Below, one piece after another: positions 4,309 to 56,332 of a stretch of 64,000 nt of DNA. Under the pieces are notes generated by a model that worked only from the letters and a program-made list of their open reading frames with translations, was not told the origin of the DNA and ran no database searches. This DNA is from Ignavibacteria bacterium. GTDB lineage: Bacteria > Bacteroidota > Ignavibacteria > Kapaibacteriales > Kapaibacteriaceae. Every line of letters starts with the position of its first letter. Within the stretch, counting starts at the first letter, position 1. Location: the NCBI GenBank assembly GCA_016191145.1, contig JACPPD010000010.1, forward strand, positions 124,001 to 188,000, given 5' to 3'. A program made the translations under genes and the position numbers.

Positions 4309-5637
4309 CTATCCAAGCTGCTGTACTAATTCCTTAAACATTCTTCCGCGCTCCTCAAAGTCCGTAAACATGTCGAAAGACTTACACGCCGGAGAGAATA
4401 AGACGACGTCGTCTGCTTCAGCCGTATCTGCGGCGAATTGAACTGCTTCTGACAACGTGTGTGCCTTGACGCAGCGCTTCAGCGTACACCAGTGATTAAA
4501 AATAGCTGTCGCCTCTTCGCCAATGCAGATTATAGCTTTTGCATTCGTGGCAACGAGTTCATCGAGTGAGGAATAATCGTTGCCGTCGGCCCTTCCGCCG
4601 GCAATCCACACCAGTGGCCTGTCGAAACTCGAAAGGGCATACCATGCCGCGTTAATATTGGTTGCTTTGGAATCGTTGATCCATCGTACACCGTTGAGCA
4701 CGCGTACGGTTTCAAGTCTGTGCTCCACACCATTGAAACTACTCAGCGAGTTGCGGATGCTCTCGCTGCTGACTTCCACTGCACGTGCTGCAAGCGCAGC
4801 AGCCATGGAATTGTATACGTTATGTAATCCCGGCACACCTATACGACGTGTAGGCATAAGACGCTCCTCTGTTTGCTGCCACCGTAATACCACTTCGTCC
4901 CCCCGGACAAATGCCCCTTCAACTTCATGGCCGATGCTGAAAAAGGCTGTAGTACTTCTGGTGTTGGGACGAGCCTGCATTACATAGGCATCATCCGCAT
5001 TCAAAACTACAATATCATCCTCTGCTTGTCGAGCGAATATTTTCCACTTTGCATTAACGTACTGTTCAAATGTGCCATGATACGTTGTATGGTCGGGAGT
5101 AATGTTCAATAAAACACTCACGTTTGGTTTAAATAGCTTTATAGTATCCAATTGATAAGAGCTGACCTCGACGACGATTACTGTATCGGCACTAACAGTT
5201 GAAACGATGCTCGAGAGAGGCTCTCCGATATTGCCTGCAACAACAGATCTTACTCCACCGTTGTTCAAAATGTGAGACGTTAACGCTGTTGTTGTTGTCT
5301 TGCCGTTTGTGCCTGTAATTGCAACGATGGTGTTGCTCAGATGCCTCCAAGCAAATTCGAGCTCTCCGATCACTTCAATACCTTCTTCTAATGCTTGCCT
5401 GCGAATTGGATTTGAAGGGGGCACTCCAGGCGAAACAACGATGAGGTCGGCTTTGAGGCTTCTCTCTGTATGCTGTCCAAATTCGTGTTCGATGCCTGCG
5501 TCATCGAGCAGTTGAATTCTTTCGGCTGCTTTTTCGGTGTCAATAGAATCGGTTACAAATACCCTGTCACCGTCGCGTTGCGCAAGCAATGCAGCCGCCA
5601 GACCGCTCCGCGCAGCGCCAACAATTGTTATGTGCAT
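4309..5637 (-). CDS. murD: UDP-N-acetylmuramoylalanine--D-glutamate ligase
   Basis: Cytoplasmic ATP-dependent ligase adding D-glutamate to UDP-MurNAc-L-alanine in peptidoglycan synthesis. 442 residues, normal length. The N-terminal Rossmann-type start is MHITIVGAARSGLAAA, the Mur-ligase ATP loop is GTNGKTTTTAL at about residue 106, and the HRLE block with WINDSKATN (about residue 318) and FSPACKSFDMF near the end is diagnostic of MurD. Last gene of the 12-gene minus-strand run; 10 bp separate it from the polyprenyl synthase gene. It stands apart from a classical mur-fts cluster. Confidence 0.95.
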   Translation of the reverse strand: MHITIVGAARSGLAAALLAQRDGDRVFVTDSIDTEKAAERIQLLDDAGIEHEFGQHTERSLKADLIVVSPGVPPSNPIRRQALEEGIEVIGELEFAWRHLSNTIVAITGTNGKTTTTALTSHILNNGGVRSVVAGNIGEPLSSIVSTVSADTVIVVEVSSYQLDTIKLFKPNVSVLLNITPDHTTYHGTFEQYVNAKWKIFARQAEDDIVVLNADDAYVMQARPNTRSTTAFFSIGHEVEGAFVRGDEVVLRWQQTEERLMPTRRIGVPGLHNVYNSMAAALAARAVEVSSESIRNSLSSFNGVEHRLETVRVLNGVRWINDSKATNINAAWYALSSFDRPLVWIAGGRADGNDYSSLDELVATNAKAIICIGEEATAIFNHWCTLKRCVKAHTLSEAVQFAADTAEADDVVLFSPACKSFDMFTDFEERGRMFKELVQQLG

Positions 5638-5647
5638 AGATGCGAAA

Positions 5648-6625
5648 CTAGTGCTGACGTCCCATCAGTTGAAGTGTGAGCAGTTCAAGGTTCTTCCTTG
5701 CATTGCCGTCGGGCACCGCTGAAAGATGCGACTGTGCCGCGAGTGTAAGACTTTCAATGAGAGCTTTTGCCTTTTCGAGGATTCCATTCGTTTCCATCAG
5801 CGACCGCACTTCCGGGATGCGACTGCGATCCAAACCATTATTCTTGAAGAATTCTGACACAAGGCTGCTGCCCCGTCCATCGAGAACCGTGTCGCGCAGC
5901 GTTATCATTAACCACGTACGCTTTCCCTGGATGATGTCTCCTCCGGCAGTCTTTCCAAATTGCTCACCACCTGTGAGGTCTAAAAGATCATCATTTAATT
6001 GAAAAGCTAATCCAATATCATGCGCAAAGTCTTTGAGAGCGGTAATATGCTGATCTGATGCGTTGCCAATACTTGCGCCGACTTCCACGGCAGCCTCGAG
6101 AAGTTTTGCCGTTTTTAAGTCAATCATGGCAAGATAGTCGTCGGATGTTACGTGCGGCGAATTCAAATGCCACATATCAAGAGCTTGTCCTTCGCACACA
6201 AAGATGAGTCCGTTGGTGAATGCTTCGAAGACATTCAACGGCTGAACACAATGATGCGCGTCCTTTCCAAGCAGGCGTAATGCGATGCCGATCATCACGT
6301 CGCCTGTGAGAATTGCAGTGTTTGCATTCCACTTTTTGTGGACGGTTAATCTGCTTCGGCGCATTTCGGAATTGTCCATGATGTCGTCGTGCACAAGTGT
6401 AAACGCATGCAGCATCTCAACGGCAATCGCTGCATTGAGTGCTCTCCCTGCTTCACCGCAAGCTGCTTCGCACGCTAAGAGTGTTAGCAAAGGACGTACG
6501 CGTTTACCGCCCCCTTCAATCAGATAACGAATGGGGTCGTAGAGCTGTCCCGGATGCAGATATGTGCTCAGTGCCTCCCTGAGTCCCTCTTCAATGATTG
6601 CCTTATATGATTCCACGAAGATCAT
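5648..6625 (-). CDS. Polyprenyl diphosphate synthase
   Basis: Trans-isoprenyl diphosphate synthase, 325 residues, which elongates allylic diphosphates with isopentenyl diphosphate, probably for the menaquinone side chain or undecaprenyl precursors. The first Asp-rich motif reads LVHDDIMDNSEMRR at about residue 75 and the second FQLNDDLLDLTGG at about 215; GGKRVRPLL marks the substrate-binding N-terminus. The ATG at 6625 overlaps the preceding isomerase gene by 23 nt; an internal GTG at 6616 is an alternative start. Product chain length cannot be read reliably. The pairing with IPP isomerase is a coherent isoprenoid unit. Confidence 0.92.
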   Translation of the reverse strand: MIFVESYKAIIEEGLREALSTYLHPGQLYDPIRYLIEGGGKRVRPLLTLLACEAACGEAGRALNAAIAVEMLHAFTLVHDDIMDNSEMRRSRLTVHKKWNANTAILTGDVMIGIALRLLGKDAHHCVQPLNVFEAFTNGLIFVCEGQALDMWHLNSPHVTSDDYLAMIDLKTAKLLEAAVEVGASIGNASDQHITALKDFAHDIGLAFQLNDDLLDLTGGEQFGKTAGGDIIQGKRTWLMITLRDTVLDGRGSSLVSEFFKNNGLDRSRIPEVRSLMETNGILEKAKALIESLTLAAQSHLSAVPDGNARKNLELLTLQLMGRQH

Positions 6626-7613
6626 CTATTGTCTTTGTACCTGTTAAAAACATTCTTCTTTTCAAGTCAAGTGTCCATTGGGCAATCAGTTGTTCAATAC
6701 CGTTAGTACCTGCTGCTATTGCTGCCTGAAGTATTGGCTGGGCCGCACCGCACAATGTAGCTCCAAGAGCAATAGCGTTAGCAATGTGAGTGCCGCTGCT
6801 GATGCCGCCGCTTGCTATCAATGTAGGTACAATTCCCTTGCATTGTTTAATACATTCAGCCGTTGGAATTCCAACGTCCCAATAGCTCAGTGTATCATTT
6901 TGATCAGTGCGGCGCATAATCTCGACACCAGCCCAAGATGTTCCTCCTGCACCAGCTACATCAATCATCGTTACTCCAGCGTTGCTGAGTCTTCGGGCAA
7001 CGTTGGCGGAGATTCCGGCCCCAACTTCTTTAACGATAATCGGCCATTCCAACTCATCAACGATGGCTGCAATTGCATCAGTTACGCCGCGAAACCGCGG
7101 CTGTCCTTCGGGCTGTAGCATTTCCTGCAAAGGATTCAGATGAATGGCCAGTGCAGAAGCATTGATCATAGTACACAAATGGTGTATGTTCTTCAGCAGT
7201 GTGCCCAAGCTATGCCATTCAACAAGCTGCACGCCGCCAATGTTTGCAATAATTGGAATGTGGGATGAAAACTCTTTTACAACAGAATATGTCGGTTCCA
7301 GCGAAGGATCTTCGATTGCCGCCCGCATAGACCCAACGCAGAATGCCGTTGCCGACTGAGCACACGCTAGTGCAATTGTACGATTGATTTGTTCAGCGTC
7401 TGCATAGCCCCCCGTCATACCAGTAACCATCAGCGGCTGGTTAAGGGGCTTGCCCAGGAATTCGATGCTAGTATCAACTTCGTCGAAGTTGATTTCCGGC
7501 AGAGCATTATATGGAAGTTCAATGTCGTCGAGACCATTGGACTTGTTGCGAAAATGAACATCAGACCTCAGGACAACCTCGACGTGTTCTTGCTTACGAG
7601 ATGGCGTATGCAT
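6603..7613 (-). CDS. fni: Type 2 isopentenyl-diphosphate delta-isomerase
   Basis: FMN- and NAD(P)H-dependent interconversion of isopentenyl and dimethylallyl diphosphate. 336 residues. Family blocks are visible: RKQEHVEVVL at the N-terminus, VTGMTGG at about residue 64, FCVGSMRAAIED, the IVKEVGAGIS block around residue 194, and the FMN-phosphate region VAGAGGTSWAGVE; IASGGISSGTHIANAIALGA lies near the C-terminus. Supplies the adjacent polyprenyl synthase with substrate; the genes overlap by 23 nt. Located 51 bp after dprA, the widest gap in this run. Confidence 0.94.
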   Translation of the reverse strand: MHTPSRKQEHVEVVLRSDVHFRNKSNGLDDIELPYNALPEINFDEVDTSIEFLGKPLNQPLMVTGMTGGYADAEQINRTIALACAQSATAFCVGSMRAAIEDPSLEPTYSVVKEFSSHIPIIANIGGVQLVEWHSLGTLLKNIHHLCTMINASALAIHLNPLQEMLQPEGQPRFRGVTDAIAAIVDELEWPIIVKEVGAGISANVARRLSNAGVTMIDVAGAGGTSWAGVEIMRRTDQNDTLSYWDVGIPTAECIKQCKGIVPTLIASGGISSGTHIANAIALGATLCGAAQPILQAAIAAGTNGIEQLIAQWTLDLKRRMFLTGTKTIDDLRGII

Positions 7614-7664
7614 CCCGCAAATTAGGGAGGCAGACTTCGTTCGTGCGGCACATCACCACTGCCG

Positions 7665-8708
7665 TTAGCGATTTATTGCGAAAAAACTTCCGGGAAGCTG
7701 CCGAACCAAACCATCGAATTCATATTGGATCAGGCGCGATATCGCAGCACCAACAGTGCACGACCACAGTGATGAGATTGCGTCGATGTGAATCGCTTCC
7801 GGGCCAAGTATTTCGAGATCAACAGGCAGTGTTCGTTTCCTTGGTTCCTGAGTGTGGTCTACTCCCAATGCGATGAGCAAATCATCGGGTGAGCAGAGGA
7901 TTCTTGCCAGACCATCACGAATCATATTGTTAGTGCCAACGCTCCGTGATGATGTAATAAAGCCTGGAAGTGCCCACACCTGTCTGCTTTGTTTGCGTGC
8001 GAATTCAGCGGTAATTAACGCTCCGCCTGTTGCCTTACTTTCTACAACTACCACGGCATCGCTGAGCCCGCTGATGATGCGGTTCCGAGCAGGGAAATAC
8101 GGAGGCAGCGCCGCAACATGATGCGGATGTTCGGATATAACAGCTCCGCCTTTTTTAACAATAGTTTCTGCCATCTGTTGTGCTGCAGACGGAGTTATGC
8201 GTCCGATTCCGCTTGCAACCACAGCGATGGTAACGCCGCCCGATTTACAGCAGGCATCATGAGCCAGCATGTCGATTCCATTTGCCAGCCCGCTTACAAT
8301 TGTGCACCTCGCTTTAACGAGGTCTGCCACCAATGCATCGGTTGCAGGTTTGCCGTGTTGTGCTGTACAAGATCTCGTCCCTACTATTGCAATTGTGGGC
8401 ACATCATTGCCGGGCAGCGTGCCGCATACAAAGAGGATTGGAGGCGGAGAGTCGATACTCTTCAACCGCGCTGGGTATTGCGTGTCCCACAGGGATATGA
8501 TGCGAACGTTGTACTCGTGGCAATCGGCAATCCATTGGTCTATGATTCCTTTGTCAGGCTCGATTGCTCCAATCTCGCCGAAGGCGCTCTCCAGCGAGTC
8601 GTGATTCTCGATTAGCCTGATGCGGTCTGCATTGGTGAGCTTTCCGAATAGATACAGCGTTAGAATGTTGTGATGTGTCCAGGGCATGACGTATTGTGCC
8701 GCCGGCAT
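7665..8708 (-). CDS. dprA: DNA processing protein DprA
   Basis: Rossmann-fold protein that binds incoming single-stranded DNA during natural transformation and loads RecA. 347 residues. The Rossmann-like core runs from IAIVGTRSCTAQHG (about residue 108) through TIVSGLANGIDMLAHDAC, GGAVISEHP and FPARNRIISGLSDAVVVVES to ALPGFITSSRSVGTNNMIRDG, all strongly DprA-like. A SAM-like N-terminal stretch and a winged-helix-like C-terminal stretch flank it. The start at ATG 8708 has a GGAGG 21 nt upstream; an alternative ATG is at 8687. It directly follows the degenerate RM-like gene with a 16-bp gap, so the two are probably co-transcribed. Confidence 0.94.
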   Translation of the reverse strand: MPAAQYVMPWTHHNILTLYLFGKLTNADRIRLIENHDSLESAFGEIGAIEPDKGIIDQWIADCHEYNVRIISLWDTQYPARLKSIDSPPPILFVCGTLPGNDVPTIAIVGTRSCTAQHGKPATDALVADLVKARCTIVSGLANGIDMLAHDACCKSGGVTIAVVASGIGRITPSAAQQMAETIVKKGGAVISEHPHHVAALPPYFPARNRIISGLSDAVVVVESKATGGALITAEFARKQSRQVWALPGFITSSRSVGTNNMIRDGLARILCSPDDLLIALGVDHTQEPRKRTLPVDLEILGPEAIHIDAISSLWSCTVGAAISRLIQYEFDGLVRQLPGSFFAINR

Positions 8709-8724
8709 TTTGCCGCGTGACGCA

Positions 8725-11700
8725 TCATGCCTCCATCATCACGGCTCGCACGGCGCTACCAACGGTATCTCTGATGTCTTCCGGAAGGGGTTCCGTCAGT
8801 TCCTTTATCGAATGCTCCAGATCTGTAGTAAACGTTTTGGCAAGAGCCAATACTTCTGCGATAAGGGGCGGATCCATCGGGATATCGATATATCGTTTTC
8901 CGAGATTGATCAATAATTCTAACATCTCGGATTCTTCGGCACATGAACATTCGAGTACATCGTCTGTCCTGTTACCCCGAAATAGCGATACCTGCCAGCC
9001 AAACATCGATCGGGAACTTGCCGCATGCGTCACGCCCGGTGGTATGATAATGGTCCGTTGTGCCGATGCAGGCAACTGTTCGATGCGAGGCGTATACCAC
9101 TCACGCATAGGGCGAACGCGATGGCGCAGCATGATTTCGGCGGCTAGTGCATTGGCAAGGTGACGCACATTTGTCGATGATGTGAGCCACGCAAGCGCAA
9201 ACCGATACACCCAACGAGTTTCTTCGTCGGTAAAGCCGAACATATCGTGCATGAAATACTGATCTAAACGCGAACGATCTCGCCGGATCATCTTCGGCCG
9301 TACAACATCGGCGTCCTCCGTACCAAATTCTTCGACGATGGTTCCTGACCTACGATGCAGAAGTTGCTTAAACCGCCGCACGTCGAAGGTCTTCAGCATT
9401 TCTTCTGTAGGGACGGGGAATTCCTGAACGTCGCGAACTGTAACATCGAACACGTGTGTGTGGCTCCTAACAAGTTCGCTGAGAAACATCCCGAGCGATG
9501 AATTCATCCACAATGCCAATGCTTCGGTGTGTGCAGGTTCTTGCAATCGAATTTCGATGAAAGAGTCGGAGACGAATGCATTTGTTTTGTTAATGGCAAC
9601 AAGCCACCGATCGCGAATCTGTCGGGGAATAATTAAGTGTGGGATATCAAGATCGCGAAGAAACCACCACGGCTTGCGCGTCCTAACGGTCGGACGTTCA
9701 TGCACACCGTCGTGTTCAGCCTGTTCAATTCGAAGTAATACCCTTGTTCCGTCCATAGTGGATTTATCCTCGGGCAAAATCAGCAGCCGTCGGTCCGATG
9801 TAGGAATCCCGGCAATGCAGTCAAGCTCGTCTGCAGATGTAATCAGGACACTTTCTATTCCATCGCGCTGAAAATATTTTTCCTCCAGATGTTCTTCTGC
9901 GATTTCAGCAATACGTGGTGCCAGGACGTCGGCAGCACCGGTTCGCAAGCCCCCTGACACAGTTGCAATTTTTCTGAGAGCAACGGTTTTCCCGGACAGC
10001 TTGCGCAGGATGGATGCAATGACATCGGGCGGAATGATTAAGTCGTCCCACCCACCTTCGATGGATGCAGACCTTGCTCGGAGTTCGGCTGATGCAACCT
10101 TTCTAACGACGACTTCATCATTGATTTTACCGCGTTCAGATGCCGACAAATATCGAATAAAGGTGGAGAGCTGTTCTTTACGGACAATGGAAAGATCGCG
10201 AATGGATTCGGCGGGGGAAACAACCGACGACAGTGGCCTGCGAAGAAACGCGAACTGCGCCATCGTTGCGTCAAATTCCGAAAATCGTTCATGCAGTTCT
10301 TGCGAATCGAATCCGGCGCGAAATTCTGCAACAATGCAGCACGTTCCATTATCGGGAATCGCCAGGGGCTCTGCATCGGCTGTTAATACCCAGCAAAGCC
10401 TGAACCGCTCTAGGAGCACACGGCGAACATCTGCGAATTCGGCGTCGCGTATTGCAGCCAGAGGAGCGAAGACAACAACTTTGGCGTTATCCGATAATTT
10501 TTGCGATTGTAACAAAAGCAACAATCTGTGCCGCTCAGAGAGGTGCGTTAGCGATATGCAGACAAGGTCCCAGGGATGGTCGGTGTCTTCGTGACGCCGG
10601 ATGATGCGCAAATCCGACGGATCGCGAAGCCGCCCGAGAGATCGCAGCAGTACAAGACGTTCTTCGGCTTCGGAGGGGGCGTATACGCGCGTATCGCACA
10701 GCGGGTGAAAGAGCCGCACCCTTACGCCAAAAGCGCCAAGGGTAGAGCCTACCTCGAGCACCTGCGGAATGTCCCGCTCCGACAGCGAGCCAATATGAAT
10801 TGTACTCAAGGCAAGGTCGATAGCGTCGATTGTTGGAACGGGCGTTCCAAATTGTTGAAAGCACCACGAGAGCACACCATCTACTGCCAGGGCAAGCTCG
10901 TCGGCTGCTAACCTGCCGAGATCAAACGCATGGACGAACGAAACAAAGTCTGCAAGCGTCGATCGGAAAAGCTTTCGTTTTGCAGGCGAAATGTCAATGT
11001 CCGAAATATTCGAGGGAAACATTGCATAACCAGCCCGATAAGCCTCACGCAGGTATGCGCTGATAATGTCTAGCATGAGCCTTGGCTCGCGAATAGACTC
11101 AGGCAGCGTAAGTGCATCGAGGTCTGCAGGCCGCTGAAGCCGAACAAGTAAGTGGCCAAGGACGGCAGTAACAATATTTACAATAGCCTCTTTGTCTACA
11201 GGAGTCGAATCTGTGCAATACAGCAGTTCGTCGAGCAGATGAATTATTCGTTGGTGAAAAAAGTTTGCTGACCTCTCATCTGCTCCGGAAGAAAGCGCGT
11301 ATAAGACTTCGCTTTCAGCATCGGATCTGGAACGGTCCAACTCAGCGCAGTGCACAATGCATTGCCGAAGCGATTCCGTAAGCCCTACGCGATTAGACGA
11401 AGTCATCACATCGTCGGCCGACATTACATCTGCCCCCTTAATCATCAGCAGGATTTGTCCCTCGTGGGTTCGTCTTTTTGAAAGCGCTTCAACGTCGAAA
11501 AGCACACACATCCTAAATGAGCTTATCATCATGAATGGGGCATGCATTCGCGTGGAGACTGACTTCATTCTGTGCACTACGTCGTTGTCAAACGCCGATT
11601 CATCAGGGTCTACGCAAAACGCCAGCATCAGGGGCTGCAGGGTATTTGCCGGTTTAATAAGAATGAACGAGCCTTCGACTCCTGCATGCGTGCTTACGTC

Positions 11701-11766
11701 CATCCTGACGGCAGAACGATCAAGCGCGTCGTGAAGGCATGTTGCAAGAACTTCAGACGACGTCAT
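8725..11766 (-). CDS. Degenerate N6-adenine methyltransferase / type IIG RM-like protein, catalytic motifs lost
   Basis: Intact 1013-residue protein whose layout follows type IIG/Eco57I-like enzymes. Residues 1-150 resemble a nuclease-type N-terminus but lack a PD-(D/E)xK signature. FGTPVPTIDAIDLAL (306-320) sits where such enzymes carry a GxxYTPxxIV block. Residues 336-348, VLEVGSTLGAFGV, sit where DPACGSGxFL is expected. WDLVCISLT (399-407) replaces the FDxIIxNPPY/F motif. From 583 to 790 there is a recognisable target-recognition-like domain: LRKIATVSGGLRTG, IPHLIIPRQIRDRW, LALWMNSSLGMFL, DVQEFPVPTEE. A C-terminal region of about 200 residues follows (RLDQYFMHDMFGFTDEE, then unassigned). 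DNA binding without methylation or cleavage is my inference. It lies between a phosphohexomutase gene (18 bp) and dprA (16 bp), in frame throughout. Confidence 0.72.
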   Translation of the reverse strand: MTSSEVLATCLHDALDRSAVRMDVSTHAGVEGSFILIKPANTLQPLMLAFCVDPDESAFDNDVVHRMKSVSTRMHAPFMMISSFRMCVLFDVEALSKRRTHEGQILLMIKGADVMSADDVMTSSNRVGLTESLRQCIVHCAELDRSRSDAESEVLYALSSGADERSANFFHQRIIHLLDELLYCTDSTPVDKEAIVNIVTAVLGHLLVRLQRPADLDALTLPESIREPRLMLDIISAYLREAYRAGYAMFPSNISDIDISPAKRKLFRSTLADFVSFVHAFDLGRLAADELALAVDGVLSWCFQQFGTPVPTIDAIDLALSTIHIGSLSERDIPQVLEVGSTLGAFGVRVRLFHPLCDTRVYAPSEAEERLVLLRSLGRLRDPSDLRIIRRHEDTDHPWDLVCISLTHLSERHRLLLLLQSQKLSDNAKVVVFAPLAAIRDAEFADVRRVLLERFRLCWVLTADAEPLAIPDNGTCCIVAEFRAGFDSQELHERFSEFDATMAQFAFLRRPLSSVVSPAESIRDLSIVRKEQLSTFIRYLSASERGKINDEVVVRKVASAELRARSASIEGGWDDLIIPPDVIASILRKLSGKTVALRKIATVSGGLRTGAADVLAPRIAEIAEEHLEEKYFQRDGIESVLITSADELDCIAGIPTSDRRLLILPEDKSTMDGTRVLLRIEQAEHDGVHERPTVRTRKPWWFLRDLDIPHLIIPRQIRDRWLVAINKTNAFVSDSFIEIRLQEPAHTEALALWMNSSLGMFLSELVRSHTHVFDVTVRDVQEFPVPTEEMLKTFDVRRFKQLLHRRSGTIVEEFGTEDADVVRPKMIRRDRSRLDQYFMHDMFGFTDEETRWVYRFALAWLTSSTNVRHLANALAAEIMLRHRVRPMREWYTPRIEQLPASAQRTIIIPPGVTHAASSRSMFGWQVSLFRGNRTDDVLECSCAEESEMLELLINLGKRYIDIPMDPPLIAEVLALAKTFTTDLEHSIKELTEPLPEDIRDTVGSAVRAVMMEA

Positions 11767-11784
11767 AATTCGTGTGCAGAATGG

Positions 11785-13167
11785 TTAAACAACTCCGGAG
11801 TTCATTTTGTTGACATGCTGTTCGACGTTGCCGATGAGCGTCGCCGCATCGGTATCGGTAGGCGCTTCTGCAATCAGCCGAAGTATTGGTTCTGTGTTTG
11901 ACGCTCTCACGTGAATCCATCTGTCGGCCCACGACAGATGCAAACCATCTTCTTTCGACATCGAGGCATGCGAATAGAATTTTTCCAGTTTGCTGAGAAC
12001 ATTTGGAAGTTCAGTTCTATCTCTCAGTTCTACGCGCCTTTTAACCATTGCATATTTCGGTATTGAGTTGCACAGTTCGCTGAGAGTCTTACCGCTTGAG
12101 TTAAGCAAGCCGCAAATGAGAGCGATGCCAACCAGACTGTCACGTCCGGCGTGAACTCTGGGGTACACTACTCCGCCGCTGCCTTCGCCCCCTATCAGTG
12201 CGCCCGTCGCCAGCATTTTGCGGACAACATTTATCTCGCCAACAGCGGCCCGAACGGTGTGTGCACCATATCGTTGAGCAACATCGTCCACCGTCCGTGT
12301 TGTGGAATAATTCACAACCACAGTACTGTTGTCTGCTGGTTGTTTTTCTAATGCAGCCATCACAGAAAGTGCAATCGTCAGTTCTTCGCCAATGGGATCA
12401 CCGTGCTCATTAAACAACACCAGCCGATCGGCATCTGGATCGACGGCAACGCCGAATGCCGCGTCGTACTGTATTACAGCACGACCTAAATCTTCGAGGT
12501 TCCCGGCAATCGGCTCGGGTGGATGGGGGAACGAGCCTGAACCGTCGCAGTACAAGGGAACGGGTTGGTAACCCAGTAGCGTGAGAAGATGGGGGACAAT
12601 AACAGATCCCGAACAATTCACTGCATCGACAACAACTCGCTTCATGCTACCTATATTCTGCGAAGGTAATTTGCTATCGATATTGAATACTTTGCATATT
12701 ACTTCAATGTGCTGTTGAATGGCATCCGTGATGTACTCAACCGATCCGCTCTGTTGCCGATCCGAGAATACTTGCGAGTGTGAGTCGACAATCCGCCACA
12801 TCGATTCATTGGCTACATCATCAAGAAATATTCCGGCTCTATCAAGAAACTTCAATCCATTCCATTCCGCGGAATTGTGAGACGCTGTAACGACGATCCC
12901 TCCCACAGCATCGGATTTTTCTGTGAGTAATTGCACCGTAGGTGTTGGCACCATCCCAAGAGATCTGATTGGCCGATTGCATGCCCTAAGCGTTCCTAGC
13001 ACGATTTCCTCTATCCAGTTTCCGGATGGCCTGCCGTCGCGACCAATTACAATTGGTCCTTCGGAAAGCATCGTGCTGAACGCTGAAGTGTATTCTGCAA
13101 TAAGCTGTGGTGTAAGGTCAGATCCGAGTGTGGCTCTTAAGCCGGAAATCGACCGCAGTAACGACAT
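11785..13167 (-). CDS. Phosphoglucomutase/phosphomannomutase family protein
   Basis: Alpha-D-phosphohexomutase, 460 residues. The catalytic phosphoserine loop is VVTASHNSAEWNGLKF at about residue 94, the magnesium loop VAVDPDADRLVLF at about 241, the sugar-binding loop GGEGSGG at about 314, and the phosphate-binding loop VRASNTEPILRLI at about 423. All four elements are present, so it should be active. Substrate (glucose-, mannose- or glucosamine-phosphate) cannot be settled from these loops alone; phosphoglucosamine mutase is possible because murD and envelope genes share the run. Gaps are 9 bp upstream and 18 bp downstream. Confidence 0.9.
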   Translation of the reverse strand: MSLLRSISGLRATLGSDLTPQLIAEYTSAFSTMLSEGPIVIGRDGRPSGNWIEEIVLGTLRACNRPIRSLGMVPTPTVQLLTEKSDAVGGIVVTASHNSAEWNGLKFLDRAGIFLDDVANESMWRIVDSHSQVFSDRQQSGSVEYITDAIQQHIEVICKVFNIDSKLPSQNIGSMKRVVVDAVNCSGSVIVPHLLTLLGYQPVPLYCDGSGSFPHPPEPIAGNLEDLGRAVIQYDAAFGVAVDPDADRLVLFNEHGDPIGEELTIALSVMAALEKQPADNSTVVVNYSTTRTVDDVAQRYGAHTVRAAVGEINVVRKMLATGALIGGEGSGGVVYPRVHAGRDSLVGIALICGLLNSSGKTLSELCNSIPKYAMVKRRVELRDRTELPNVLSKLEKFYSHASMSKEDGLHLSWADRWIHVRASNTEPILRLIAEAPTDTDAATLIGNVEQHVNKMNSGVV

Positions 13168-13176
13168 GACACAAAT

Positions 13177-15921
13177 CTATTTAATCGCGCTGCCAACCAG
13201 CGCCTCAATCTCCGCTGCCTTGCGGGGAAGCGCACCCGAAAGATTGATTGGATCTGCATCCGTTATCAGAATGTCGTCTTCGATACGTACTCCGATATTC
13301 CACCACCGCTTGTCGCATGCAGATCCGGCGGCGATATATATGCCTGGTTCGACTGTTATAACGGAGTTAGGCTGCAGCAGCCCCCCTCTGCCAACATCAT
13401 GGACATCCAGGCCGAGGTAATGCGATGTTCCGTGCATGAAGTATCGTTGGGCATCTGCGGCATCTGAAATGATTCCAATTTCGATTAACCGTCGAACAAC
13501 CACACGCATTGCCGCGCGATGTGGATCCTTGAATTGCATTCCTGCTCTGCACGCGGCAATGCCGGAATCCTGGGCTTCGAGAACAATGTTGTAAATCGTT
13601 TTCTGTTCTTCAGTGAAAGATCCCGATAACGGAAATGTCCTGGTAACATCGGCAGTATAGCCATGATATTCAGCGCCGCAATCTGCGAGAATCATGTCGC
13701 CGGATTTTGCTGCACGTCGGTTTGCGATGTAGTGGAGAATGCATGCATTGTAACCAGAACCTACGATGGACGGGTAGCCAACATCTTCTGCTCCGCCGGC
13801 TTTAAAACCAAATTCAATCAACGCTTCAATCTCAAACTCCTTCATCCCAGGTTTTGTACGGCTCATTGCATATCTGTGTCCGGCTACCGTCACATCTATT
13901 GCCTTGCGCATCAAGCGTAACTCCGCAGTGTCTTTTACTTCGCGCATGGCAACAAGCGCATCGATTTGAGATACGATTTGCAATGCGGGAAAACTAGACG
14001 TCAGCCCCTTTCGACTTTCCTTGTCGATATACATGTTCTTGCCGAGCAAAGGCATGAACACCGATTTTGTGGGCCATCCGGCAACAAACAATTTGTCTAT
14101 CCCTTGCTCAGCTCGTGCAACTAGTGTTTGACCTGGCTGGGCTTGGCTTGATGTTGAGTCGTTTTTCAAGACAGCATTCACAAATTCCGTGAGTTTGGTG
14201 GAAGCTAATGCTGTATCGAGACCGTATACCTGCATCGTTTCCTTTGGACCGGCCGTCGTTCCCGTCCACTGCTCCTTTTCGGCAACCCGCTCTTCTATAA
14301 ACATGACTTCGTGGAACTTTCTGCCGTTTATTACAATTCCGGACGAAGACAACAGCAGCACGGCATTCGGATGGGGGTATCCTGTAAGGTAAAGAAGATT
14401 AGAATTCTGTCGGTATTCATAATCAACATCGTTCTGACGGTTTCTCTCATCTGCCGAAAGAACGACAGCGATGCTGTTTCCGGGTAGGGAGTCAAGCAGC
14501 CTTTCCCGACGCTCTTTAAAGACTCGCTTGGAAGGCATATCGGTGTCGAAGACTTCATAATCAAACGTCTGACTCATGGATGAATTACCAGGCATTGCAA
14601 CGCCAACCAGCGTCATTAGCAGTAACCCTAACACCGTTGACTTCTTCCGCTCAATATTTGGAATCAACAATCTTGCTCCCGGCTGAAATGAAACATAGTA
14701 CCACATCCACTCAACAAGAACCTTTAGGCGGTTTCGAAAACTAATGAGTTTTATAATATGCAGCACAGCCCAGAATATCCATGCAATGAATCCGCTGATT
14801 CTCAGCCTGCCAAGCTCTACAACTGCTTTTGCCCGACCAATCGTTGCCATCGAACCCAAATCCTTATATGCAAAAGGCTTTTCTACCGTACCACGCAGAA
14901 TGTTGCCGGCAACATATCTGCCCATCTGAATGGCCACCTGAGCAACACCTGGAAGGGGGCTCATTAGCCCGTAGTCGAAATTTGCTGCGTCGCCAATGAC
15001 GCAGATTTCCGGATGATCTACAATGCTACAATCACTCCCGACAACCGGCCGACCATAGCTGTCAATGCTGCAATGCAGCGAAGAAAGAATGGGCGATACT
15101 GCATTGCCTGCAGCCCAAATAATGTTGCTACTGTTTATTATAATGTTGTTTAATTCTCCCGTTTTGGCATCACGTTGTTGTACGCGAACACCTGTTGAAT
15201 TTATATTAACAACCTTGGTTAACAACAGCACATCAACGCCAATGGAAGTGAGGGACCGCAGCGCCCGATGCGACAATTCTTTGTGATATGAGGTGAGAAC
15301 GCGATCCTGGCCTTCGATGAGGATGATTCTCACGTCGCTTCTCAATATCTGCGGGAAATCCGGCAGCATCGTCCGCAGCGCAATTTCAGAGACTGCACCG
15401 GCAAGTTCTACACCAGTTGGACCGCCCCCTACAATAACAAAAGTTAGGAGTTGTCGGAGATTCTCCGTTCCAACGGCTTTGGTGGCCTGCTCAAAGGTTT
15501 GCAGAAGTCTGCGGCGAATCTCAAGGGCATCGGTTAAATCTTTTAGTCCCGGTGCAAATTGTTCCCATTCATCGTGACCGAAGTAGGAATGACGAGTGCC
15601 GGTAGCAATAACAAGATGATCGTATTCATACCGATCTAATTTGCCTATGACATTGCGGCTATCAACGTCAACGTCAACTACTTCATCCATAACCACGGTG
15701 ATGTTTTTCGAACCACTGAGGATTGCGCGCAGCGGCTGCGCAATATCGGCGGGCGACAATGCGGCTGTTGCAACCTGATACAAAAGCGGCTGAAAGAGAT
15801 GATGGTTTGTTTTGTCGATCAGCGTAACATCTACATGCGAGTTGCGCAGAGATTTCGCTACGGACAAACCGCCGAAACCGCCTCCAACGACGACAATCTT
15901 CTTTCTCTGGTCCGAAGGCAT
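13177..15921 (-). CDS. NDH-2 type NADH:quinone oxidoreductase fused to M24B aminopeptidase P-like domain
   Basis: One 914-residue frame holding two complete proteins. Residues 1 to about 420 are a type II NADH dehydrogenase: FAD motif VVVGGGFGGLSVAKSL, NAD motif FVIVGGGPTGVELAGAV (161-177), GDAANFD and two hydrophobic C-terminal helices (376-412). Residues about 427-443 form another hydrophobic stretch resembling a signal peptide or anchor. Residues 455-914 are a secreted-type Xaa-Pro aminopeptidase: AMP_N region with YEYRQNSNLLYLTGYP, then M24 metal ligands in LADCGAEYHGYTADVT (D747, D758), MHGTSHYLGLDVHD (H834), VEPG (E858) and RIEDD (E881). No stop or frameshift separates them. A GGGAG followed by TTG at 14668-14670 could start the peptidase independently. 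Confidence 0.88.
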   Translation of the reverse strand: MPSDQRKKIVVVGGGFGGLSVAKSLRNSHVDVTLIDKTNHHLFQPLLYQVATAALSPADIAQPLRAILSGSKNITVVMDEVVDVDVDSRNVIGKLDRYEYDHLVIATGTRHSYFGHDEWEQFAPGLKDLTDALEIRRRLLQTFEQATKAVGTENLRQLLTFVIVGGGPTGVELAGAVSEIALRTMLPDFPQILRSDVRIILIEGQDRVLTSYHKELSHRALRSLTSIGVDVLLLTKVVNINSTGVRVQQRDAKTGELNNIIINSSNIIWAAGNAVSPILSSLHCSIDSYGRPVVGSDCSIVDHPEICVIGDAANFDYGLMSPLPGVAQVAIQMGRYVAGNILRGTVEKPFAYKDLGSMATIGRAKAVVELGRLRISGFIAWIFWAVLHIIKLISFRNRLKVLVEWMWYYVSFQPGARLLIPNIERKKSTVLGLLLMTLVGVAMPGNSSMSQTFDYEVFDTDMPSKRVFKERRERLLDSLPGNSIAVVLSADERNRQNDVDYEYRQNSNLLYLTGYPHPNAVLLLSSSGIVINGRKFHEVMFIEERVAEKEQWTGTTAGPKETMQVYGLDTALASTKLTEFVNAVLKNDSTSSQAQPGQTLVARAEQGIDKLFVAGWPTKSVFMPLLGKNMYIDKESRKGLTSSFPALQIVSQIDALVAMREVKDTAELRLMRKAIDVTVAGHRYAMSRTKPGMKEFEIEALIEFGFKAGGAEDVGYPSIVGSGYNACILHYIANRRAAKSGDMILADCGAEYHGYTADVTRTFPLSGSFTEEQKTIYNIVLEAQDSGIAACRAGMQFKDPHRAAMRVVVRRLIEIGIISDAADAQRYFMHGTSHYLGLDVHDVGRGGLLQPNSVITVEPGIYIAAGSACDKRWWNIGVRIEDDILITDADPINLSGALPRKAAEIEALVGSAIK

Positions 15922-15935
15922 TCTTCAATAATACT

Positions 15936-16655
15936 CTATGCAGCCGCCAACGTGGCAGCATCGATTCTGCGCGCGCCTGCTTCCATAAGCGCAGATGCGC
16001 ACGAATTCAACGTTGCTCCTGTTGTAAGAACATCGTCAACAACGAGGATGTTTGCTCCGATAACAGCGCTGCGATCTATTACTTCGAAGGCGCCTGTAAC
16101 GTTTCCCAGCCGCTGGTGCTCCGAGAGCGCAGTCTGTGTGCCAGTATACCGTGTGCGCCTGAGTGCAGGAATGTTTTGCACATGCATGGCATCTGCTACG
16201 CCGGAGGCAATGAATTCTGCTTGGTTGTAGCCGCGTTCACGCTTTCTGGCACTGTGTATTGGTACTGCACAAACGAAATCAACTTGCACATCTCTGTCAA
16301 TAAGGTACTCACCCAACATGATACCTAAACGAGTTGCAAGTCTTGTTCGCCCGCCATACTTGATGGCATAAATTGCCTTGTCTATAGAAGGCCGCCCAAT
16401 TTCGTCGGCAAAGAACGGCGATCCAACCAACCACAAGGCGTTGAACGACGAGATGTACATTTCATCTTCGTCAATGTGGCGCTGTACTGTGAGCATCAGC
16501 TCGATATTGGAAGGGGCAGGCTGGCACGCATCGAGCGCTGCACGCGAGATGGGGAAGTGGTGATCTGACAGGGGAACGTCTGTTAACAAGCAATGCGGCG
16601 GGTACACTACATCATCGAGTGCATGCACAAGATTTCTCAGCAGTGAACCAACCAT
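15936..16655 (-). CDS. comF: ComF family phosphoribosyltransferase-fold protein
   Basis: Competence-associated ComF/GntX family protein, 239 residues, needed for DNA uptake in transformable bacteria. The block RKRERGYNQAEFIASGVA (about residues 142-159) and the PRPP-type loop ILVVDDVLTTGATLNSC (about 203-219) are canonical. The N-terminal zinc finger of typical ComF (two Cys-x2-Cys pairs) is reduced: only one Cys remains in VYPPHCLLTD and another in LDACQ. Lies between tryptophan dioxygenase (17 bp) and the NDH-2 fusion (14 bp), in the same run as dprA. Confidence 0.9.
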   Translation of the reverse strand: MVGSLLRNLVHALDDVVYPPHCLLTDVPLSDHHFPISRAALDACQPAPSNIELMLTVQRHIDEDEMYISSFNALWLVGSPFFADEIGRPSIDKAIYAIKYGGRTRLATRLGIMLGEYLIDRDVQVDFVCAVPIHSARKRERGYNQAEFIASGVADAMHVQNIPALRRTRYTGTQTALSEHQRLGNVTGAFEVIDRSAVIGANILVVDDVLTTGATLNSCASALMEAGARRIDAATLAAA

Positions 16656-54655: not shown

Positions 54656-56261
<1,606 letters not shown>

Positions 56262-56332
56262 CCTGCCCAATTTCCGGGCAGCTCACTTCGTAATTTTGCA
56301 ATTGTATCCCCTCACTCTCGAGACACTAAACA

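Follow-up and report, generated by a model that had tools for sequence, protein, structure and literature searches.

What is a full-length type IIG protein kept for when its catalytic centres are gone? The question is raised by one gene in the window, by which we mean the whole stretch of 64,000 nucleotides analysed here. The gene (positions 8725 to 11766, minus strand) runs from an ATG to a stop with no internal stops and encodes 1013 amino acids, as the initial annotation had it. Its product, recognised from the frame, from hhalign comparisons and from a structural model as a pseudo type IIG protein, is labelled pMT below. Restriction genes are usually patchy in their distribution and quickly lost. 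A dead full-length type IIG protein fixed in a bacterial family would show that such proteins have roles beyond cutting and methylating, and pMT would be a natural separation of binding from catalysis.

The gene is also an annotation trap: the window protein is nameless in Pfam and NCBIfam (zero matches at E up to 10), and the PADLOC type II methyltransferase profile is its sole clear library match. This profile (MTase_II, PDLC03267) covers residues 556-805 only, with E 3.6e-12, and matches 16/16 aligned members of the pMT family; a weak match to M_Eco57I_C is found in 5/16 (best E 0.0021). A search of PDB sequences with the single window protein gave 0 matches, and the family profile gave one match at chance level, to the O-methyltransferase 5zw3 (E 0.6).

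The kinship of the protein is seen in profiles and folds. The alignment by hhalign of the pMT family with eight intact relatives is collinear over residues 31-837 (probability 100, E 1.2e-44, 767 columns). An AlphaFold model made from 18 sequences has a mean pLDDT of 84.2 and a pTM of 0.77, with lower confidence in parts of 610-720, and its first Foldseek match is RM.BpuSI (3s1s, E 2.8e-22). VIA gives Z 17.2 for the model against RM.BpuSI (rmsd 12.9, 701 residues), and Z values near this for M.BseCI (18.4), an HsdM protein (17.4) and CamA (17.2). The high rmsd against RM.BpuSI suggests that the domains are placed differently. At fold level, nuclease, helical, N6-methyltransferase and target-recognition (TRD) parts follow each other in this order in a single chain, which is the type IIG arrangement. 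Profile and model support the earlier claim that pMT is a relative of type IIG enzymes with its catalytic centres erased, and the methyltransferase fold and TRD for which a structural check had been proposed are both present in the model.

All parts are read from the minus strand. The nuclease-like N-terminal domain (residues 1-120, positions 11407 to 11766) has S33, F50 and V52 at the D, E and K positions. It is followed by a connector (residues 121-305, positions 10852 to 11406) that is helical in the model and whose boundaries were set by us; many structural matches of the model begin near residue 162. Then come a methyltransferase-fold domain without catalytic motifs (residues 306-570, positions 10057 to 10851), placed by hhalign and the model, and a target-recognition-like domain (residues 571-800, positions 9367 to 10056), which is net acidic and has the top mean identity of the family. 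Within the latter lies a G-(L/I/M)-R-T-G-A loop (residues 606-613, positions 9928 to 9951), whose counterpart in intact enzymes is GIKTGANDFF. The chain ends in a C-terminal helical and beta region (residues 801-1013, positions 8728 to 9366) with 19/213 invariant columns. A model of the truncated member L048 matches the same folds as window pMT, with low confidence in the connector and early methyltransferase part, and mostly near 90 pLDDT in the TRD and C-terminus. The methyltransferase part is shortened in L021, L022 and L023 (genomes G005, G004 and G003), a further erosion within the window's own genus, and the strand 2-3 region of this part is missing in L021 and L022.

None of the 21 family members retains the nuclease K, SAM motif I or the catalytic motif IV. 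In general motif I is tied to SAM, and motif IV is the adenine-methylation motif. At the position of motif I (residues 338-344, positions 10735 to 10755) E-x-G-x3-G replaces DPxCGxG: E stands for D and the central G is gone in 21/21, and E338, G340 and G344 are invariant in the same 21, so the residues at this position are not random. At the position of motif IV (residues 405-408, positions 10543 to 10554) the window has SLTH where relatives have NPPY, and N, P, P and Y/F are all four absent in every member. As for the PD-(D/E)XK triad, K is found in 0/21 and the first D in 1/21, and the E position holds an acid in 15/21 (D 14, E 1). Alignment of these positions shows that a third centre, the N-terminal PD-(D/E)XK site, is lost in addition to motifs I and IV. 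Columns 361-366 hold no conserved acid, though acids are common at 367-369; the window has E366 and L004 has D366, so motif II may or may not be kept. Sites were mapped by hhalign and MAFFT, which are concordant at the catalytic positions, and the residue-to-DNA arithmetic by which the initial annotation had placed motif I, motif IV and the TRD is right.

Outside the family, motifs I and IV are present in 23/23 full-length relatives examined, with motif IV as NPPY in 19, NMPF in 1 and NFP-Y/F in 3. Frames matching the pMT profile outside the family number 32, and nine short or broken ones (L074-L078, L164-L167) were left out of this count; among these nine, motif IV is found in six, motif I in L078, and neither in L076 and L077. 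L072 and L080 are near-copies.

How widespread is pMT, and is it maintained? Searching 60 relatives with the protein and 123 genomes of the order with the profile places it in 22/23 genomes of one Kapaibacterium-like family, the window's own. The sole family genome without pMT (G016) lacks a dprA match as well, so an assembly gap is the likely cause. The gene is one uninterrupted frame in each of 21 members, and the copy in G001 is split across two contig ends. Outside the family, partial matches to the profile are found in 16 genomes of the order (12 of which were fetched), in 24/294 genomes of a class sample and in 16/395 of a phylum sample, these samples being overlapping. Two of the outside genomes, G066 and G330, match the profile over almost its whole length, in separate pieces, and the proteins concerned (L067 and L157) have intact motifs. 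Phage-borne relatives were considered and rejected: none of 109 pattern matches in viral contigs was confirmed.

Retention by selection, as proposed earlier, is borne out by low dN/dS in eight close pairs (0.070, 0.043, 0.048, 0.037, 0.076, 0.074, 0.084 and 0.133), with dS above 1 in five of the eight. In the pair of the window and L032, the value for pMT (0.070 over 761 codons) compares with 0.083 for dprA, 0.080 for fni, 0.143 for polyprenyl synthase and 0.062 for murD. Within pMT the same pair gives 0.032 for the methyltransferase part, 0.059 for the C-terminal part and 0.091 for the TRD. Identity to window pMT is 33-48% among 15 aligned members. Recent decay in a single strain, which would have spoken against the initial annotation, is rejected, given the presence in 22/23 genomes, the low dN/dS and the loss of motifs in 21/21; no family member with intact motifs was found. 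The loss and the selection are each well supported, which makes pMT an old domesticated pseudo-restriction enzyme. As its centres look lost while selection on it is strong, it probably serves a new purpose that does not involve catalysis.

In a quick tree of residues 401-860, for which uneven composition was flagged, a single branch (SH-aLRT 100) parts the 21 pMT members from 22 intact relatives. The separation is about 2.0 changes per column (1.43 + 0.55 across the midpoint root). The bipartitions in common are 7/14 for pMT and glmM, 6/11 for pMT and dprA, and 6/11 for glmM and dprA. The pMT tree is thus as congruent with the dprA tree as the glmM tree is, and vertical descent fits, though it is unproven.

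The 3' end of pMT lies 16 bp before dprA (positions 7665 to 8708, minus strand; PF02481, E 2.6e-67). On the other side is a glmM-like phosphohexomutase (positions 11785 to 13167, minus strand), recognised by its PGM_PMM domains and, by synteny, the strictest neighbour. The initial annotation had noted both the spacing to dprA and a run with comF, and this agrees with the window, where all genes from murD through comF are on the minus strand. The neighbours at 4309-16655 are a Mur ligase, a polyprenyl synthase, an FMN_dh protein, dprA, a PGM_PMM protein, an oxidoreductase-peptidase and a ComF-like protein. We take the FMN_dh and PGM_PMM genes to be fni and glmM from this Pfam family likeness, and the ComF-like neighbour, which has no Pfam match at 1e-10, is presumably ComF. 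The order comF, peptidase, glmM, pMT, dprA, fni, polyprenyl synthase, murD recurs in 17 named loci where the contig permits, with the peptidase inverted in L038 and L039 and wider spacing in some loci. In the window (13177-15921) an NDH-2-like oxidoreductase and an Xaa-Pro aminopeptidase are joined in one reading frame (Pyr_redox_2, AMP_N, Peptidase_M24); in L033 and L048 a stop separates the two parts.

A glmM-like gene precedes pMT in 16/16 testable loci (L032 begins inside pMT), and dprA follows directly in 13/16 (the contig of L034 ends too early). In L042 the two genes are separated by 1.7 kb with Abi_2 (Abi_2/AbiD; 8943-10622), in L045 by 5 kb with an MmeI-like type IIG gene and a HipA-like pair (8946-13992), and in L046 no dprA is seen up to the contig end 3.4 kb from pMT, with other genes instead. 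The defence-type genes at this place in L045 and L042 perhaps mark an insertion hot spot. Of the two traits that the initial annotation had wanted checked in orthologues, motif loss holds throughout (0/21 intact) and the dprA neighbour holds in these 13 loci and fails in three. In other families dprA is present in 14/14 tested genomes, no copy of pMT was found around it in 14 stretches, and glmM directly adjoins dprA without pMT in 3/14 loci (L099, L100 and L109). From this junction we infer that pMT entered a pre-existing one.

Does the position reveal the function? The initial annotation had derived from it a part in handling incoming DNA, in sensing methylation or in defence. The adjacency stands, but the derived role is weakened: glmM is the stricter neighbour, and the glmM-dprA junction also exists without pMT. 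Genes for cell-wall, isoprenoid and DNA processes stand together in this run, so adjacency alone is insufficient for a DprA partnership. ComEC is found in 21/23 family genomes, which makes DNA uptake plausible. A passage in PMC4489622, citing Dwivedi 2013, reports that H. pylori DprA inhibits a restriction enzyme and stimulates a methyltransferase, and for this reason a partnership of DprA and pMT is worth testing. The functional link between pMT and dprA is only suggestive.

The protein had been described as DNA-recognising. The fold of the TRD is retained, but its charge and loop do not support this description. Across the 21 members the TRD carries a net charge between -3 and -17, and 28 relatives from outside the family span -3 to +16 (Mann-Whitney p 3e-9, a generous value since the sequences are related). 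For background, the median charge of 142 ORFs from the window's genome is -2.3 per 230 aa, with 10-90% at -7.0 to 5.4. As a lineage control we used 16 loci from the genomes of the family, which gave 11 usable motif-IV-bearing methylase frames; with windows at a fixed offset, a crude choice, these range from -16 to +3.7 per 230 aa (median 1), versus -4 to -14 for pMT. One control, a 129-residue window, is at -16, past every pMT member, and another, at -5, lies inside the pMT range. These values show that the charge shift is smaller than it first looked. Further, 21/21 members are 3-4 residues shorter in a TRD loop that 8/8 aligned intact relatives possess, six of them with G-x-G.

At the same time the TRD is the most similar part between members. 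Its mean pairwise identity is 0.504, versus 0.412-0.443 in other parts of pMT, and 26/230 columns are invariant. Its identity exceeds that of the methyltransferase part in 153/210 family pairs versus 114/253 outside pairs. The arginines R608, R691 and R720 are invariant among 16 members.

A DNA-uptake sequence was looked for in samples of two genomes (464 kb and 400 kb) and rejected: the enriched words are of the GGGGCT/GGGGGC type, and beyond these no abundant uptake-like word is common to both. The conspicuous repeats of G000 are tandem arrays.

Some repeats were observed along the way. Positions 56143-56262 of the window hold a 29-bp tandem repeat of 4.1 copies with the core TATGCTGCCGGG, which recurs in 8/20 other 20-kb stretches of the genome, mostly at 29-bp spacing, as a dispersed mini-repeat family. 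Arrays of a 7-bp unit (GGGTTCA) are found in L114 (4624), L130 (11200-12024) and L132 (3855-4617); in L130 and L132 they come as oppositely oriented pairs some 450-470 bases from each other.

The explanation that we favour, by a little over an even chance, is domestication. In the ancestor of the Kapaibacterium-like family a type IIG gene would have come to lie between glmM and dprA by a single capture, would have lost the nuclease, SAM motif I and the adenine-methylation motif, and would yet have been retained as a non-catalytic protein. pMT would act by binding, without chemistry, with its nuclease-like N-terminus, TRD and C-terminal region as putative working surfaces. The acidic TRD, its shortened loop and its top identity suggest that it holds one fixed putative partner, for which a protein is likelier than a stretch of DNA, with clear uncertainty. 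The methyltransferase shell may serve mainly as structure, given that its strand 2-3 region is missing from two members and that a third has a shortened one. The most likely description of pMT is a binding scaffold, non-catalytic, for a putative partner. As for the process, our best single guess, and no more than that, is a role alongside DprA in or near DNA uptake or recombination. It is possible, if rather doubtful, that a full-length type IIG enzyme was exapted here as a core non-catalytic housekeeping component, for example as a DprA partner via a protein-binding TRD, in which case it would guide or guard incoming or recombining DNA.

Several observations speak against the scaffold. The charge contrast is weaker within the lineage; constraint in the pair of the window and L032 is strongest on the methyltransferase part and weaker on the TRD, which fits poorly with a mere shell and with the TRD as the main working part; the invariant TRD arginines could contact DNA; and the invariant E338, G340 and G344 may reflect a kept pocket. 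The arginines lead to a rival that we consider unlikely, yet the nearest: pMT would still bind DNA sequence-specifically, the TRD recognising a fixed site as a regulator, a nucleoid or DNA-uptake factor or a methylation sensor. The TRD fold of the model, the G-x-R-T-G-A loop kept in 21/21 and the high TRD identity, which is unlike a diversifying specificity, all agree with it, but the TRD is net acidic in 21/21 with its loop shortened, and the sampled genomes have neither an abundant uptake-like word in common nor, in G000, conspicuous repeats other than tandem arrays. The pocket leads to another, in which pMT would sense a ligand or be a new enzyme, its altered motif I having kept the ability to bind SAM or some other small molecule. 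Here the three invariant residues and the low dN/dS of the methyltransferase part count in favour, as does the precedent of RM.BpuSI, whose cleavage is abolished when a SAM-binding residue is mutated (PMC3817140), so that a pocket for SAM can work as a switch. However, L021 and L022 keep E-x-G-x3-G without the strand 2-3 region, so that there, at least, ordinary SAM binding is not what the motif is kept for; columns 361-366 show no conserved acid, though acids are common at 367-369; and the match to the O-methyltransferase 5zw3, which would favour this reading, is at chance level. We regard this reading as improbable.

It is more improbable still that pMT is a defence protein without catalysis of its own, such as a decoy or a sensor triggering other systems. 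The defence-type genes next to it in L045 and L042 would suit such a role, but its fixed place in 22/23 genomes differs from the patchy Eco57I-type domain (PF07669, in 16/23 genomes of the family), and the viral contigs gave no confirmed relative. That the genome also encodes an active partner of Eco57I type was considered and rejected, PF07669 having no match in G000. Least credible is a decaying relic without function: the lost motifs and the three shortened members would be expected of one, but dN/dS is low in 8/8 pairs, and the frame is unbroken in all 21 members free of a contig-end cut, despite their divergence from the window.

How does the domesticated protein compare with known systems? 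Among the open-licence papers listed, judged by titles and abstract starts, we found no report of a full-length type IIG protein that was domesticated or had lost its catalysis. BREX PglX/BrxX resembles pMT in its methyltransferase and TRD fold (9ewz, Z 14.1, rmsd 11.4, 540 aligned), but the catalytic motifs are absent from pMT. Membership in BREX PglX is rejected: the PADLOC PglX profile matches 1/16 members (E 4.5e-4), and none of the seven window neighbours scanned is a BREX gene by Pfam or name. RM.BpuSI, a type IIS/C/G enzyme (3s1s), has the same order of nuclease, helical connector, methyltransferase and TRD; it is active (PMC3817140), whereas pMT lacks three sets of catalytic residues. 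Intact type IIG relatives from the same order and class are L067 (G066) and L157 (G330), with similar length, part order and TRD hallmarks. L067 matches the PADLOC profile REase_MTase_IIG (PDLC03606, E 7.8e-54) and, unlike pMT, has D...EAK, LDPSCGAGTF and NPPY; its contig of 4 kb is too short to show the locus. L157 has DPSCGAG and NPPY. Their TRD charges are +14 and +16, in contrast to the acidic TRD of pMT. Finally, HVO_A0006 of Haloferax volcanii is, like pMT, a type IIG derivative short of the full enzyme, and its deletion alters methylation (PMC4389544). In the same source it is a rare N-terminal nuclease fragment that keeps PD-EAK and is flanked by transposition genes; pMT, in contrast, is full-length, has lost its sites and is found in 22/23 genomes of its family.
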